Below, piece after piece: positions 1 through 53,153 of a stretch of DNA of 53,153 bases (within the stretch, counting starts at the first letter, position 1; every line of letters starts with the position of its first letter). The notes under the pieces were generated by a model that saw nothing but the letters and a program-made list of their open reading frames with translations, was not told where the DNA came from and made no database searches. This stretch comes from Bacteroidota bacterium (GTDB lineage Bacteria > Bacteroidota > Bacteroidia > UBA7662 > CANHCV01), in assembly GCA_947501265.1 (NCBI GenBank), contig CANMVY010000014.1:1-53153 (forward strand), given 5' to 3'. The translations under genes and the position numbers were made by a program.

Positions 1-110
1 GGTTTAAATTGAGTGGTTAGAATGAAAAAGGTCAACAGAAGGAAGGCCACGTCGGTCATTGCCGTCATGTCTACTGCTGTGCTTTTTCTAGGTACTTTAA
101 CCTTTGGCAT
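1..110 (-). CDS. exbD: ExbD/TolR biopolymer transport protein, N-terminal part
   Basis: Only the first 36 codons are inside the window; the rest lies beyond the left edge. The ATG is at 110 and the reading frame is open to base 1. The visible protein has a short basic N-terminus, then the ExbD signature (VDMTAMTDVAFLLLTFF, residues about 13-29), which carries the membrane-embedded Asp needed for proton coupling, and the start of a single transmembrane helix. ExbD works with ExbB in the inner membrane to pass proton motive force to TonB-type proteins. It lies 20 bp downstream of exbB on the same strand, so the two are almost certainly cotranscribed. The family call rests on this short conserved segment and the neighbour; TolR or a gliding-motor relative cannot be separated from such a short fragment. 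Confidence 0.78.
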   Translation of the reverse strand, partial: MPKVKVPRKSTAVDMTAMTDVAFLLLTFFILTTQFK

Positions 111-130
111 GGTGAAGTGTGGTTAAAGGA

Positions 131-946
131 TTATTTATTGTTAGCTGCAAACGTTTGAACAATGCTGAATCCAGCTTCTTCAATCGCGTAAGTTAATTTA
201 TCGATGCGGGTAGTGAACAAGTTGTACATGATGATAGCGATCGCTGAAGTTGCAATACCTACTGCAGTATTAACAAGTGCTTCGGAAATCGCATTCGCCA
301 ACTCACCAGAATCATTGGTTTCTCCCAAACTACCGAATGCCTTGATCATACCAATAACCGTTCCCAAAAGTGCGATCAACGTACCGATGTTCGAAATGGT
401 GGAGATAACTACCAAATTCTTTTCCAATCCTGGCAATTCCAAGGTAGTAGCTTCTTCCAATTCTTTCTGGATCGCCAACATCTTCTGTTCTTTGTCCATT
501 TTATCTTCGGTCATCATCACTTGGTATTTGTGCAAACCAGCTTGTACTACGTTTGCCAAAGAACCACCTTGCTTATTGCATTCAGCAATGGCTTCAGAAA
601 TTTTTCCTTCGCCCAACATCTTCTGGATTACGCGAACGAAAGCATCATTGCCTTTTTTACCAGAAGATTTTGTAAGTGCTAAAAATCTTTCAAATGAAAA
701 AGTAAACACCAACAAGAATAAAGTCATCAACAAGGGTACAATGAATCCACCTTTGTAAACGATACCGAAATAATCACCGGGCATTGGTTTGTTGGAATTC
801 AATCCACCTTCAAAGTGAGATCCATCTCCAAATACGGTGTGGAAGATGATTTCACAAACGATTAGGGCTACTGGAATTACCAAGTAAGCGAAAATGGTTG
901 CTCCGCTTCCAGACTTTTGTTTTTTTGTTGCGTTTTGAGTGCTCAT
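131..946 (-). CDS. exbB: MotA/TolQ/ExbB proton channel family protein
   Basis: Inner-membrane proton channel subunit that partners ExbD to energise TonB-dependent outer-membrane processes. The 271-residue protein has membrane segments at about 17-38, 67-86, 180-203 and 225-246, with a cytoplasmic helical loop (about 90-175) between the second and third. The ExbB/TolQ core is seen in the last two helices: TISNIGTLIALLGTVIGMI and EALVNTAVGIATSAIAI. The extra N-terminal helix before the canonical three is common in Bacteroidota ExbB proteins. The start is the ATG at 946, with a good promoter 37 bp upstream. Family membership is secure; assignment to ExbB rather than TolQ is inferred from the adjacent ExbD-like gene. 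Confidence 0.88.
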   Translation of the reverse strand: MSTQNATKKQKSGSGATIFAYLVIPVALIVCEIIFHTVFGDGSHFEGGLNSNKPMPGDYFGIVYKGGFIVPLLMTLFLLVFTFSFERFLALTKSSGKKGNDAFVRVIQKMLGEGKISEAIAECNKQGGSLANVVQAGLHKYQVMMTEDKMDKEQKMLAIQKELEEATTLELPGLEKNLVVISTISNIGTLIALLGTVIGMIKAFGSLGETNDSGELANAISEALVNTAVGIATSAIAIIMYNLFTTRIDKLTYAIEEAGFSIVQTFAANNK

Positions 947-28774: not shown

Positions 28775-29140
28775 GGTGGACCCGGAGGGAGTCGAACCCT
28801 CGTCCGGAGCTGATCTTCACAGGCGATCTACATGCTTAGTTGCATCTTGCTTTTCGAGAATGAACCGGCAATGCAACGGCCTACCCATTCCTTATCTCTT
28901 TGATCTCGGAACTTTTAAGAGCGTGGAAGTTCCTATCTCCTGCATACTGGACCCGGTCGACCCGCCGGCAGGAGCCATGGGCAGGTGCGTTGGGTACTAG
29001 TGCGTTAATCCTAGATTAAGCAGCTAGTGCGTAAGTGTTGTTGCCAGTTAAAGGCTGAAGGTTCAGATTAACGTGCATTTCCAACAAGGCACGGCATGCA
29101 CACAAGTAAAGGCGTCAACCCGTCGATTCCGGTCGGGCCC
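28774..29140 (-). ncRNA. ssrA: Transfer-messenger RNA (tmRNA)
   Basis: A 367-nt tmRNA that rescues stalled ribosomes and tags their products for proteolysis. The 5' end GGGCCCG (29140-29134) pairs with CGGGTCC just before the ACCA end, giving the seven-pair tRNA-like acceptor stem. The T-arm (GAGGG / CCCTC around TTCGACT) and the encoded CCA are clear, and the 5' part contains the conserved GGAATCGACGGG. The tag frame is at 29016-29045. It is transcribed against gldN, and both share the hairpin at 28737-28774. Its boundaries come from the acceptor pairing and are accurate to a few bases. Confidence 0.96.
29016..29045 (-). other. tmRNA proteolysis-tag reading frame
   Basis: Ten codons read on the minus strand as GNNTYALAA and stop (resume codon GGC, stop TAA). 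The hydrophobic ALAA end is the standard degron; the middle NNTY resembles known Bacteroidota tags. Confidence 0.88.
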
Positions 29141-47362: not shown

Positions 47363-50083
47363 TTACGAAAACGTTTTCTCGACAATGTTCGCCTGCTCCT
47401 GTGCGTGCACCTTGGCGTAACCCGTGGCAGGCGATGCGCTTTCCTTGCGCGCAATCACCTCCAAACGCTCACGGTTCATCTTGAAGCGCAACAAATACGT
47501 CCAATAACCCATGTTCGCAGGCTCTTCCTGAACCCAAACAAAATTAGCGTTTTTATATTTTTCGTAAACTTCCATCAATTGCTTCTCAGGAAGTGGGAAC
47601 AGCTGCTCCAAACGAATGATGGCCACATCTTTTCGGCCATCGGCCTGCTGCTTAGCCAACAAATCGAAGTACACTTTTCCGGTGCACAACAACACTTTGG
47701 TCACCTTGCTCGCTGCACCGGCATATCCATCCATCAAAACTTCTTGGAAACGGGTATTCCCTAAAATTTCCTTTACATCGCTCTTCACCAACGGATGACG
47801 GAGCAAACTCTTGGGCGACATCACCACCAACGGCTTGCGGAAATTCCAGGTCAACTGTCGACGCAATAAGTGGAAGTAATTGGAAGGCGACGTGCAATTG
47901 GCGATGATCATGTTGTACTCGGCCGCCAATTGGAGAAAACGCTCAGGGCGAGCATTCGAGTGTTCCGGCCCTTGGCCTTCGTACCCGTGGGGCAACAACA
48001 TCACCATGCCGTTCATGCGCTGCCATTTGCTTTCGCCAGAAGCGATGAATTGGTCGATCATGGTTTGAGCTCCGTTCGAAAAATCACCAAATTGAGCTTC
48101 CCAAATGGTTAAATTGTTCGGATTCGACATGGCATAGCCGTATTCAAATCCCAAAACAGCGTACTCAGAAAGCAAAGAGTTGTAAATGCGGAATTCACCT
48201 TGTCCGGCACCAATTCCGTTCAACGAATTGTAGAATTTTTCGGTTTGTTGATCAAAAAATCCTGCATGACGGTGAGAGAACGTACCACGAATCACGTCCT
48301 GTCCGCTAATGCGAACGTTTTTGCCTTCGTGGAGCATGGTCCCGTAAGCCATCAATTCGGCCAAAGCCCAATCGAGGGTGCCGTTGGTATACATCTTCTT
48401 CCGATCTTCCAACAACTGTTGTACCTTTTTGATGGGGGTAACATCTTCGGGCTGTTTGGTGAGGGCCGCAATCACGGCGTCGGTTACTTTGGCATTCACG
48501 CCGGTAACGGGAGATTGGTCGAAATCCGATGAGTTGGAACGCCCAATTTTTTCCCAAAGACGAGAAGCATGCGGCTTAATGGCCGGAATGGTTTTTTGTT
48601 TCACGTTGTTCAAACGATCTTGCAACAAATCGTTGAACGCCTTTTCGTCGGACTTCGCCTCTGCTTCGGTGATGGCACCGGAAGCAAGCAATTGCTGACG
48701 GTAAATTTCCAAGGAATTTTTATGTTTGGAAATCAAATCGTAAAAGTGCGGTTGGGTGAACTTGGGTTCATCGCTTTCGTTGTGTCCGTGTTTGCGGTAA
48801 CACACCATATCGATGAAAACATCTACGCCAAATTGCTGACGGAATTCAGTCGCCATTTCTACAGCGAAAATCACGGCTTCAGCATCGTCTCCGTTCACGT
48901 GGAAAACCGGACAATCGATGGCTTTGGCAACGGCAGTGGAGTAGTCGGAGGAGCGAGAATCGCTGAAATTCGTCGTAAATCCAATCTGGTTGTTGATGAC
49001 AAAGTGCATGGTTCCGCCGGTGTAATAACCGGGAAGTTGCGACATTTGAGCTACTTCATAAACGATGCCTTGTCCAGAAAGCGCAGCGTCGCCATGAATT
49101 AAAATCGGCATCAATTGGGAACGATCACCCTGGTACCAATTGTCGCCTTTGCCGCGAACGTATCCTTCCAAAACCGGATTCACCGCTTCGAGGTGGGAAG
49201 GATTCGGAACAAGGGCCAAATACACTTCTTTGTTGTTCGTGGTTTTGGTAATGGAGGAGAAGCCGAGGTGGTATTTCACGTCTCCATCTCCAAAAGAAAC
49301 GTCGGGATTGATGTTTCCTTCGAATTCGTTGAAGATGTAATCGTAACTTTTTTCAAGGATATTGGCAAGCACGTTCAAACGACCGCGGTGGGCCATTCCA
49401 ATGGCAAAACGCTTCACTCCCAAATCGGCGCCGTGGTTGATAATGGCATCCAAAGCGGGGATGGTATTTTCACCACCTTCCAAAGAAAATCGTTTTTGTC
49501 CGACAAATTTTTTGTGCAGGAAGTTTTCAAAAACGGCGGCTTCGGTGAGTTTATGAAGGGTTCTTTTCTTTTTTTCGATGTCCATCTGGTACTTGGGCCA
49601 ACGGCTTTCGAAGTGCTGTTGCATCCATTCCCTCATCCATTTTGAACGGATGTGCATGTATTCAACGCCGATGCTTCCGGCGTACAATTTTTCAAGATGC
49701 GCCGTGATGGAACGGAGGGAAGCCCCGTTCATGCCAATCAAGGCTCCGGCATGGAAGGAGTGATCGAGGTCGGCCTCGCTCAATCCAAAATCGGAAAGGT
49801 CCAAGGCTGGCTGACGATCGAGGCGCGGACGGATGGGATTGGTTTTGGCAACCAAGTGTCCGCGGCTGCGCCATGCATCGATGTATTGGGCTACGGCAAG
49901 TTCTTTTGAGAGTTGGGAAGCATCCACGTTTTCGGCCGAAAAGCCCGATTGAGATGCAAATTCAAATCCTTCAAAGAATTTTTTCCAGCTGATATCTACC
50001 GATTCCGGATCTTTTTTCCAAGATTCGTACAGATGTTCCAGAGCTACGGGCTCTGCGTTGGCGATGTAGGAATACTGATTCAT
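47363..50083 (-). CDS. odhA: 2-oxoglutarate dehydrogenase E1 component
   Basis: Thiamine-diphosphate enzyme that decarboxylates 2-oxoglutarate and passes the succinyl group to the lipoyl-E2 subunit in the citric acid cycle. The 906-residue protein has the N-terminal E2-binding segment (YIANAEPVALEHLYESWKKD), AIGMAHRGRLNVLANIL, the ThDP/Mg motif GDAALSGQGIVYEVAQMS, FVINNQIGFTTN, VCYRKHGHNESDEPKFTQP, FSHRHAGFFDQQ, GFEYGYAMSNPNNLTIWEAQFGD in parts and LLPHGYEGQGPEHSNARPERFLQ in parts. The start is ATG 50083; the longer frame to 50122 would cross the promoter. No odhB lies downstream: a terminator follows directly. Confidence 0.97.
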   Translation of the reverse strand: MNQYSYIANAEPVALEHLYESWKKDPESVDISWKKFFEGFEFASQSGFSAENVDASQLSKELAVAQYIDAWRSRGHLVAKTNPIRPRLDRQPALDLSDFGLSEADLDHSFHAGALIGMNGASLRSITAHLEKLYAGSIGVEYMHIRSKWMREWMQQHFESRWPKYQMDIEKKKRTLHKLTEAAVFENFLHKKFVGQKRFSLEGGENTIPALDAIINHGADLGVKRFAIGMAHRGRLNVLANILEKSYDYIFNEFEGNINPDVSFGDGDVKYHLGFSSITKTTNNKEVYLALVPNPSHLEAVNPVLEGYVRGKGDNWYQGDRSQLMPILIHGDAALSGQGIVYEVAQMSQLPGYYTGGTMHFVINNQIGFTTNFSDSRSSDYSTAVAKAIDCPVFHVNGDDAEAVIFAVEMATEFRQQFGVDVFIDMVCYRKHGHNESDEPKFTQPHFYDLISKHKNSLEIYRQQLLASGAITEAEAKSDEKAFNDLLQDRLNNVKQKTIPAIKPHASRLWEKIGRSNSSDFDQSPVTGVNAKVTDAVIAALTKQPEDVTPIKKVQQLLEDRKKMYTNGTLDWALAELMAYGTMLHEGKNVRISGQDVIRGTFSHRHAGFFDQQTEKFYNSLNGIGAGQGEFRIYNSLLSEYAVLGFEYGYAMSNPNNLTIWEAQFGDFSNGAQTMIDQFIASGESKWQRMNGMVMLLPHGYEGQGPEHSNARPERFLQLAAEYNMIIANCTSPSNYFHLLRRQLTWNFRKPLVVMSPKSLLRHPLVKSDVKEILGNTRFQEVLMDGYAGAASKVTKVLLCTGKVYFDLLAKQQADGRKDVAIIRLEQLFPLPEKQLMEVYEKYKNANFVWVQEEPANMGYWTYLLRFKMNRERLEVIARKESASPATGYAKVHAQEQANIVEKTFS

Positions 50084-50134: not shown

Positions 50135-50180
50135 AATTCCATAAAAAAGAGGCCCATCCGGGCCTCTTTTTTATGGAATT
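50135..50180. terminator. Perfect 21-bp hairpin terminator
   Basis: A perfect 21-bp inverted repeat (50135-50155 with 50160-50180) around loop ATCC. The G/C core GAGGCCC / GGGCCTC is flanked by A6 and T6, so it can work in both directions. It ends the leftward T9SS cargo gene (stop at 50210) ahead of odhA. Confidence 0.9.
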
Positions 50181-50209: not shown

Positions 50210-53153
50210 TTATTTGGATACAACCATTTTGAATACTGTGGTATTTCCGTTGGAAACAACGTGAACGAAGTAAATACCATTGGAGAAAGAACGCTCATCG
50301 AAGTTTTCAACTTTTGATTGAATGGAACGATTTGCGATGATTTTTCCAGTAAGATCGTAAACAGCAATGTTTCCTGTTGTTGCTTCAGCAAAACGAACTT
50401 CAAAATTGCCATTGGATGGGTTTGGATACAACGATACTGAAGTTTCAGAAATAGAACGGCAAGCCGCTGTGTTAACTGAAATAGAACCGGGCTGAGACCA
50501 ACCGCAAGTGGCAGTTTGAACTTGAACACCAATCTTTCCTGATACAAAACTTCCATTGTTAGAAATGAGAGCCGAATTATTATTTTGGCTAACCAAAGTC
50601 AATCCTGCTGGTAAGTTGAAACGGTAACGAGTAGCACCAATAACTACAGGAACGGAGAAAGTTTCAGTTTCACCAGGGCACAAGCTACTTGCACCTGAAA
50701 TAACTGGTTTATCAAGAAGAACGATGGTTTTAGTTGCAATTGGAGTAAATCCGCAAGGAGTTGATCCTTTTACAGTAATGTTACCACTTGTAAATCCAGC
50801 GTTGAAATTCACAACAATGGAATTTGTTCCTTGTCCTGAAACGATGGTAGCACCTGTTGGAACAGTCCACTGGTAAGAGTTAGTACCTGCGATTGGAGAT
50901 ACGGTGTAGGTTGCATTAGTTGCAGTTCCTTTAATTCCGCAAACACTGGTTGTAGATTGTGTAAATACTGGCAACGAGGTTGGAGGAGTAGCAGATAATG
51001 TAATGATAGAGAATCTTGAGCTCAAACCGCAAGCATTGGAAGGCTTAACGCGGATCTGAGAATTCGAAACAAAATTATTTCCGAAAGTAACTCCAATTCT
51101 TGATGTACCGTTTCCAGTTACCATGGTTACACCAGTTGGAAGTGTCCATGCATAACTTGTTGCAGTAGCATTTTCAGCAATCGAATAGTAAACGGTGTCT
51201 GTAGTACCCATTTTCAAACAAACATTTGATAAACCAGAAATGGCTGTGGTGTTGTTGATAGGTGCTCCAGAACATGCAGTACCATTCACGCGGAAGATAG
51301 AAACCGCTTCATCGAAATCGTTCGACTGAATTTTTACCAAAGCAGTGCTGTTGGTACGAACAATAGGACGATATTGAACTGCGAAATTCAAAGAACTTCC
51401 TGCATTAACGGTAACAGGGAAGGTTGGAAGATTCAACAAAGAGAAATCAGAAGAAGAATTACCAGCGAATGAAATTCCGGAAATGGTCAATGCAGATTGG
51501 CCAGAGTTGCGAATGGAATAATTACGGATTGATTTCGAATTCAAGCTTTGCTGGTTGAACAACGTGCTATCAGCAAAGTTTGGTTCTTTGATGTTGTTGA
51601 TGGTTTTGATTTCGGTGTTATTTCCAAATACTCCAATTTCAGGATTCGAAGCAGCAGCATCAGGTGAATTCAAAACAACCAATTGGCCTAATTCAACCAT
51701 TTCACCACCTACAAACTTGTGAATTTCAGCGTTCATGATGAACTTACCAGGACCAAGGATGTCTTGAGCGTCGAAAATACCAGAAGACTCTTCGTCTTGG
51801 GTCAAGAAATCTGGCTTACCAGAGATGAAGTAAGTAGAATCAAAGCGAGCGATTTCGAACAAGGAATCGGTAGCAACATTGTATTGCCAAACTTTAGCAA
51901 TGTGAGCGTTGTTACCTGGATCTTCTTGGATGTAGATATGGCCAGCGCGATCGCTACCGATGTTGTCCATCATTTTTGGTCCTTCTGTTCCATCAATAAC
52001 AGCTGTAACAGTACCACCAAGAGTTACATCGTTGATGTTCGTGAAACGCAAGCGGTACATGCGGCTCGGGCCAGACATGGAGTTGGTAGTAACGAAATAG
52101 AAATCGTTAGGATTAGCTGGATCGAACAAACCATCTTCAGGGCGCAAGAAACGAGTTACACCTAAAGCGGTAGATTTGGTTTCCAAAGCAGCACCAGAGC
52201 TATCGCGAACGTAGCCAAGATCAACCATAGAGAAGGTAGTATTTGCAGCAATCAAAGAAGAAGTTTCAGTAGCAAGACCGTTTACAGCAACTCCGTAAAG
52301 TTTACCAAAGGCAAGACCTGCTTTTTCAATTTCATTTCCAGAATCGGATTTAGCACCCACGTAGAAGTAAACCTGACCAGGAGTGGCATCGTCCATTCCA
52401 GCAACTACGGTTAAATCAGAAGGATTTGGAGAAGCAACAGCATTTTCCCAAGAGAAACGACCCAGGTAAGGAAGTTGGTAGGAAGTACCTGTTTCAGCAC
52501 CTGTAAGGATGTGAGCAAAAGCACGTCCTTCAGCACCGGTTTCTTCACCGTTCATGAACATACGAACCAAAGAACCTTTACCAGTAGCAGCGTTGTAGAA
52601 AGCTGAAGCAACAGGAATTTCACCGGAGCAGAAACGACTAAATGCACCATTGATAGAATCAAGATTAGCAACATTGGAAGTTACATACTGACCGTTTTTC
52701 CAAAGTTTCACATTTTGGATCAAGTCAGCACCAGAGCGAACAGCAAGGGTATTTTTATCAATATTAAGTTGAGAGATGTAAGCACCTTTGGTTCCGTGAG
52801 CGCGAACAACACCAGATGTTGAAGTGAATTCGTGAGCAACATACAAATTGAAAGTACCGTTACCCAAGTCGATAGCACCCATTCCATCAGGGATACCGTT
52901 CAATTGATAACCGTTTACTTTATCTCCAGCAGTCATGATGGAAGTTACGGAAGCTCCTGCCTGAGTAGCTGTAAAGTAAGGAGCCTTGGATGAAGAGAAC
53001 CCGGTGTTGGTTGTCAAACTTTTTGCAGCATCAGGTGAATTCAAAACAACCAATTGGCCTAATTCAACCATTTCACCACCTACAAACTTGTGAATTTCAG
53101 CGTTCATGATGAACTTACCAGGACCAAGGATGTCTTGAGCGTCGAAAATACCA
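50210..53153 (-). CDS. Large multidomain T9SS cargo with PhoX-like domain, 5'-partial
   Basis: The frame is open to the right edge, so the true start and signal peptide lie outside; the ATG at 53107 is internal. The 980 visible residues show, in order: the tail of one domain copy at the edge; a PhoX/DUF839-like propeller of about 430 residues (GIPDGMGAIDLGNGTFNLYV; FCSGEIPVASAFYN; GRFSWENAVASPN; FLRPEDGLFDPANPNDFYFV; HIYIQEDPGNNAHI); a choice-of-anchor D/HYDIN-like domain (YSIRNSGQSALTISGISF ... FAVQYRPIV); three PKD-like repeats of about 80-85 residues with cores SYAWTLPTG, SYQWTVPTG, RYRFNLPAG; and a type A sorting domain (LYPNPSNGNFEVRF ... FSNGIYFVHV). It would be secreted by the T9SS. 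Whether the PhoX-like domain is catalytic is unknown. Confidence 0.85.
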   Translation of the reverse strand, partial: GIFDAQDILGPGKFIMNAEIHKFVGGEMVELGQLVVLNSPDAAKSLTTNTGFSSSKAPYFTATQAGASVTSIMTAGDKVNGYQLNGIPDGMGAIDLGNGTFNLYVAHEFTSTSGVVRAHGTKGAYISQLNIDKNTLAVRSGADLIQNVKLWKNGQYVTSNVANLDSINGAFSRFCSGEIPVASAFYNAATGKGSLVRMFMNGEETGAEGRAFAHILTGAETGTSYQLPYLGRFSWENAVASPNPSDLTVVAGMDDATPGQVYFYVGAKSDSGNEIEKAGLAFGKLYGVAVNGLATETSSLIAANTTFSMVDLGYVRDSSGAALETKSTALGVTRFLRPEDGLFDPANPNDFYFVTTNSMSGPSRMYRLRFTNINDVTLGGTVTAVIDGTEGPKMMDNIGSDRAGHIYIQEDPGNNAHIAKVWQYNVATDSLFEIARFDSTYFISGKPDFLTQDEESSGIFDAQDILGPGKFIMNAEIHKFVGGEMVELGQLVVLNSPDAAASNPEIGVFGNNTEIKTINNIKEPNFADSTLFNQQSLNSKSIRNYSIRNSGQSALTISGISFAGNSSSDFSLLNLPTFPVTVNAGSSLNFAVQYRPIVRTNSTALVKIQSNDFDEAVSIFRVNGTACSGAPINNTTAISGLSNVCLKMGTTDTVYYSIAENATATSYAWTLPTGVTMVTGNGTSRIGVTFGNNFVSNSQIRVKPSNACGLSSRFSIITLSATPPTSLPVFTQSTTSVCGIKGTATNATYTVSPIAGTNSYQWTVPTGATIVSGQGTNSIVVNFNAGFTSGNITVKGSTPCGFTPIATKTIVLLDKPVISGASSLCPGETETFSVPVVIGATRYRFNLPAGLTLVSQNNNSALISNNGSFVSGKIGVQVQTATCGWSQPGSISVNTAACRSISETSVSLYPNPSNGNFEVRFAEATTGNIAVYDLTGKIIANRSIQSKVENFDERSFSNGIYFVHVVSNGNTTVFKMVVSK
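51654..51782. repeat. 129-bp direct repeat, internal copy
   Basis: Identical, base for base, to 53025-53153. It encodes the end of the PhoX-like domain (GIFDAQDILGPGKFIMN and the following GQLVVLNSPDAA in parts). Confidence 0.95.
53025..53153. repeat. 129-bp direct repeat, copy at the window edge
   Basis: Identical to 51654-51782, shifted by 1371 bp (457 codons exactly). The bases before the two left ends differ (T versus A). The copy is cut by the window edge, so the full repeat may be longer. Confidence 0.95.

Follow-up and report, generated by a model that had tools for sequence, protein, structure and literature searches.

A predicted tandem duplication of a PhoX-like domain in a Bacteroidota T9SS cargo protein split between two contigs

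Introduction

PhoX-type enzymes free phosphate from organic matter, and the PhoX active site coordinates two Fe and three Ca ions. Classical PhoX consists of one domain and is exported by Tat (PMC4223295). In Flavobacterium johnsoniae, a PhoX-like gene, Fjoh_2478, is paired with a MauG-like gene, Fjoh_2477, and the pair is strongly induced on phosphate depletion (PMC8115612). Deletion of phoX in this organism lowers the inducible phosphatase activity, its PhoX shows no detectable activity in P. putida when the partner is missing, and a MauG-made cofactor has been suggested for it (PMC8812569).

The locus described here resembles the F. johnsoniae pair in that an exported Bacteroidota PhoX-like enzyme is encoded beside a MauG-like di-haem cytochrome c peroxidase, a likeness of shared Pfam families only. 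As in F. johnsoniae, the PhoX is distantly related to the classical enzyme. Fjoh_2478 is a predicted lipoprotein, whereas the T9SS cargo studied here has a phytase-like domain at its N-terminus, followed by two PhoX units; no lipobox was seen in its putative signal peptide. It also differs from classical, Tat-exported PhoX in carrying two units in one T9SS cargo.

Results

An exact in-frame repeat at the contig edge

The window, the whole stretch of DNA analyzed, corresponds to the full length of contig C14 (53,153 bp), one of 26 contigs in an assembly of 2.33 Mb. On its minus strand, an ORF at 50210-53152 (980-aa open frame) is open at the contig end. By overlap and in-frame join, positions 50210-53153 form the 3' part of a T9SS cargo gene that continues on a second contig, C19 (26374-29121). 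The preliminary description had reported an exact 129-bp repeat in this gene, 457 codons apart, with the second copy reaching the last base of the window. Both observations are borne out by sequence comparison: 51654-51782 and 53025-53153 are 100% identical, in frame and spaced by 1371 bp, with the latter copy truncated where the contig stops. No other direct repeat in the last 8 kb of C14 exceeds 36 bp or 90% identity, and an exact in-frame match of 129 bp lies far beyond chance.

A search of the same genome with the repeat gave two hits in C14 and one in C19 (C19:29025-29121); none of the other contigs among the 26 carries it. Once C19 is counted, the exact tract common to both unit ends is 161 bp long (window 51654-51814, minus strand) and includes the 51654-51782 block. 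At the end of unit 1, C19, which ends at 29121, covers the first 129 bp of this tract and C14 the last 129 bp, leaving an exact overlap of 97 bp. The second block (53025-53153, minus strand), identical to C19:29025-29121 over those 97 bp, is the end of an upstream PhoX unit 1. The length of 129 bp is a property of the assembly cut and no biological unit, because the second copy is truncated by the contig end. What is repeated is the whole PhoX domain, ~1.3 kb, with 97.3% nucleotide identity between copies; of the 129-bp block and 1371-bp repeat proposed earlier, the repetition is real and the block is not its unit.

Joining the two contigs

Exact 149-bp overlaps are present between other contig ends of the assembly, as expected of a de Bruijn-graph assembler. 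One of them links the end of C13 with the start of C14, exactly over window positions 1-149, making C13 a candidate neighbor on that side. An exact tract longer than this overlap is a plausible break point. With both contig ends lying 129 bp inside the tract, 129 bp was considered as the assembler k and rejected, since other ends share 149 bp; the C19 and C14 ends seem to have lost 20 bp by trimming, and the likely value of k is 149. The suggestion that a short-read assembly had stopped inside a repeat agrees with C19 and C14 both ending in the shared sequence.

The ORF at the end of C19 is 916 aa long and open at its 3' end. It encodes an N-terminal hydrophobic signal (putative, read by eye), a phytase-like domain (PF13449, E 1e-42) and a PhoX unit with 98% amino acid identity to the window PhoX. 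Joining the C19 end to the reversed C14 start over the 97 exact bases yields an in-frame ORF of 1,864 aa, in which a signal peptide, the phytase-like domain, two successive PhoX units, an Ig/PKD-like region and a T9SS tail follow one another. Unit 1 is complete across the overlap and unit 2 within C14, both in one frame. The real gene had been expected to be longer than the window shows, and C19 supplies the missing 5' part. The signal peptide is not directly followed by a single PhoX-like domain, the arrangement that the preliminary description had set against tandem domains: the phytase-like domain lies between, and a second unit follows.

The locus in sister species

In both sister species available for the genus (G001 and G002), sucA (2-oxoglutarate dehydrogenase E1; window 47363-50083, minus strand, assigned by Pfam and taken as syntenic anchor) and a phosphoglucomutase (PGM) gene (C19:20989-22725) are divergent neighbors ~0.94 kb apart. 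The C19-C14 join is confirmed by this adjacency of sucA and PGM, there without the PhoX gene. The tandem PhoX-like domains anticipated from the edge repeat are supported by the second PhoX copy on C19, the in-frame join and the gene order of both sister species.

The flanks align (96% in G001) up to C19:22772 and from window position 50148, within the region of a terminator-like hairpin between the PhoX gene and sucA (50137-50175, from sequence and flank comparison). Between sucA and PGM, the sister species have only a ~259-aa gene, related to a 253-aa CxxCH/T9SS gene of C19. In the genome studied here, ~9.2 kb (C19:22773 to window 50149) replaces the 0.87-kb sister segment with clean flanks. 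This segment holds the 253-aa CxxCH T9SS gene, a di-haem CCP_MauG gene and the phytase-PhoX-PhoX gene, and its G+C content is 40%, versus 48% for sucA and PGM. The interval between PGM and sucA is a variable locus. No PhoX relative was found in the two sister species, where CCP paralogs are only distant (23-34%), and genus and family searches returned no copy of the PhoX gene outside its own genome. Either gain by exchange in this lineage or loss in the sisters fits these data.

Divergence of the two units

Between units 1 and 2, 35 of 1,314 nucleotides differ (dS 0.092, dN 0.0085, ratio 0.09). The low ratio shows that both units are under purifying selection and are thus kept by selection. 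For sucA, dS to the nearest sister species is 0.18, and because the unit value is lower, the duplication or last homogenization of the units is probably younger than that species split. The recent duplication proposed earlier thus holds in a relative sense. Comparison of the C19 and C14 copies places the unit starts in different linkers; the linker between units 1 and 2 (KSLTTNTG; 53000-53024, minus strand) departs from the start of unit 1 on C19. In a tree of 64 units, described below, the two are sisters with a support of 100. The run without differences at the unit end has P ~0.02, and such a run anywhere has P ~0.6, if differences are evenly spread. Gene conversion between the two copies was considered, and we make no claim of it, the run being only mildly unusual.

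Domain architecture and fold

Unit 2 spans 447 aa (51665-53005, minus strand) and was assigned by Pfam PF05787 and by fold search with an AlphaFold2 model. It scores 31.6 bits against the PhoX profile (gathering cut-off 24) with partial coverage, positions 231-367 of 515; all 67 aligned units match PF05787 at E<=0.01. It is followed on the same strand by a choice-of-anchor-D/Ig-like region (51311-51586; NCBIfam NF012200, 41 bits, just below the curated cut-off of 45), by three PKD-like (PKD_6) domains (50483-51253, outer limits approximate; three stretches of Pfam PF19408) and by a T9SS C-terminal sorting domain (Por_Secre_tail; 50219-50431; Pfam PF18962, TIGR04183). This tail (PF18962, TIGR04183) and the putative signal peptide on C19, read by eye, are the features of a T9SS type A cargo.

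The model of unit 2 has a pLDDT of 95.7. Its best PDB fold matches are 3zwu and 4a9v, both P. fluorescens PhoX (E 3e-16, TM 0.68 by query), with paraoxonase and other propellers far behind. Sequence searches of the PDB with one unit or with the profiles A1 and A2 returned no PhoX relative; only the fold search found one. P. fluorescens PhoX is hence the closest solved fold and belongs to the same Pfam family (PF05787), but it has 580 residues against the 447 of the unit, and identity in the fold alignment is 12%. Across the 67 units, Asp40, Asp94, Glu154, Glu155, Glu187, Glu290, Asp291, Asp347, Glu361, Asp362, Glu405, Glu406 and His429 (unit 2 numbering) are invariant, and Cys126 is nearly so. 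The invariant Asp, Glu and His positions would be compatible with a metal site.

A MauG-like neighbor

The gene next upstream, on the same strand as the PhoX gene, encodes a di-haem CCP_MauG protein (C19:23822-25834, which is L006:3823-5835; PF03150, E 2e-33). In most relatives, a CCP_MauG gene likewise adjoins the PhoX gene, either downstream or divergently upstream. Among the 67 units, no residue cleanly separates MauG-adjacent from other units, and we name no modification site. His165 and Tyr176 are present in 100% of units with an adjacent MauG gene and in ~80% of those without.

Tandem PhoX units among relatives

A scan of genome contigs returned 79 loci, mostly from Bacteroidota MAGs, with some bins bearing odd species titles. 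The Bacteroidota relatives with a signal peptide, a phytase-like domain, one or more PhoX units and a T9SS tail share the domain order of the protein described here and in most cases its CCP_MauG neighbor, but its units are only ~50-60% identical to theirs. Among 23 complete signal peptide-phytase-like-PhoX relatives, a single PhoX unit is present in 10, two units in another 10 and three units in 3.

Tandem units within one protein can be very similar (L086, 99.5%; L132, 98.0%; L092, 97.3%). In the tree of 64 units, a quick tree with SH-aLRT support only, the units of one protein form a supported clade in 11 proteins, including the one studied here. We therefore see at least 11 separate duplication or homogenization events among the relatives examined, and tandem PhoX has arisen or been homogenized many times, mostly in separate events. 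In L139 and L142, units pair across species, which points to an older duplication. The tandem units of L086, L092 and L132 share an exact run of ~1.0-1.2 kb; in L086 and L092, the exact core of ~1 kb lies between divergent unit ends. These two cores look like gene conversion, and assembler collapse of variants could also produce them. An Ig insert common to both units in L082, L083, L091 and L094 could reflect concerted evolution or duplication of a PhoX+Ig block.

Several phytase-PhoX genes stop at contig ends in or just after a PhoX unit (L087, L141, L158, L159, and C32/C39 of genome G142). The G142 gene seems to be split between the ends of C32 and C39. The same relative has PhoX modules in very large T9SS proteins (L075/L131 on its contig C9, L074 and L076); proteins of 2258 and 1790 aa carry other domains, among them a 5'-nucleotidase-like region recognized by eye. 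In L146, the PhoX units are distributed among three ORFs that lie in different frames (402, 559 and 626 aa), which suggests either frameshifts in a gene with tandem PhoX or errors of assembly. A literature search found no description of tandem PhoX in T9SS proteins, and recurrent tandem amplification in this family of T9SS proteins is the new part of these observations.

Discussion

The edge repeat is best read as the mark of a genuine tandem duplication that affected the PhoX domain of one large, predicted secreted protein. There is very probably a single gene for a T9SS-exported multi-domain phosphatase with tandem PhoX units, split between C19 and C14 and with a copy number of at least two; the join and the copy number are drawn from the overlap, graph logic and synteny. 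A metagenomic origin of the assembly is possible, and if C19 and C14 were not one gene, the PhoX units would come from two strains or two separate genes. This is highly improbable, as the overlap is exact and in frame, synteny in both G001 and G002 puts the genes flanking C19 and C14 side by side, and the alternative leaves C14 without a 5' end and C19 without a 3' end. A false duplication of one unit by the assembler, the real gene having a single PhoX, would agree with a second block that ends exactly at the contig end and with the graph overlaps that contig ends here typically carry. Such an artefact would not, however, create the 35 nucleotide differences, the dN/dS of 0.09 or the different linkers; in addition, a PhoX end must precede the block at the C14 edge, and C19 supplies one. 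We consider it extremely improbable. As for the number of units, at least two are needed because the first linker of C14 requires a preceding unit end, which besides C14 only C19 supplies, and two is the simplest fit because unit 2 runs into a unique stalk without ambiguity. A gene with three or more units, whose identical or short middle units the assembly collapsed or dropped, is rather unlikely. Three-unit relatives exist (L090, L100, L136 and L140), the C19-C14 junction was left open by the assembly, and a lone middle unit of ~1.4 kb could have been dropped, the smallest contig being 3,041 bp. Yet C14 resolved the passage from unit 2 into the stalk, a path that an identical unit 2 leading back to another unit would have made ambiguous, and no third unit or fragment is present in the 26 contigs.

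The product of this gene is most likely an exported phosphate-scavenging enzyme with a phytase-like module and duplicated, putatively catalytic PhoX modules. The PhoX-like propellers might instead be binding or adhesion modules of a surface protein, with tandem copies for avidity. The low identity to characterized PhoX, the inactivity of F. johnsoniae PhoX alone in P. putida (PMC8812569) and the long Ig/PKD-like stalk speak for binding, but conservation across the 67 units is complete or almost complete at many Asp, Glu and His positions and at one Cys, PhoX is the closest fold, and the counterpart in Flavobacterium is Pi-induced, with phosphatase activity falling when it is deleted (PMC8115612, PMC8812569). 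We judge binding modules to be unlikely.

We propose that an in-frame tandem duplication of the PhoX domain gave two units that are now ~97% identical in nucleotide sequence. The resulting protein would consist of a signal peptide, a phytase-like propeller (PF13449), PhoX-like propellers 1 and 2, an Ig/PKD-like stalk and a Por sorting tail. Each unit would act as an Fe/Ca PhoX-type phosphomonoesterase, and two catalytic units per chain would raise the phosphatase capacity at the surface. The MauG-like di-haem protein encoded just upstream may assist in maturation of the PhoX domains, a role already proposed for the Flavobacterium enzyme. In the assembly, the gene would have been broken at the exact tract that ends both units, leaving its 5' part on C19 and its 3' part on C14.

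We suggest, tentatively and with some doubt, that tandem PhoX in this Bacteroidota family, repeatedly gained and homogenized at one to three copies, makes up a fast-changing, MauG-matured surface phosphatase whose copy number is systematically missed by short-read assemblies. The Bacteroidota version described here joins PhoX to a phytase-like domain and a T9SS tail and contains it in tandem copies. Short-read assemblies can break at exact tracts shared by the units, so metagenomes may under-report how many units such genes have and even whether the genes are intact. Widespread pairing with MauG extends the Flavobacterium hypothesis of a protein-derived PhoX cofactor to many lineages and makes it testable.
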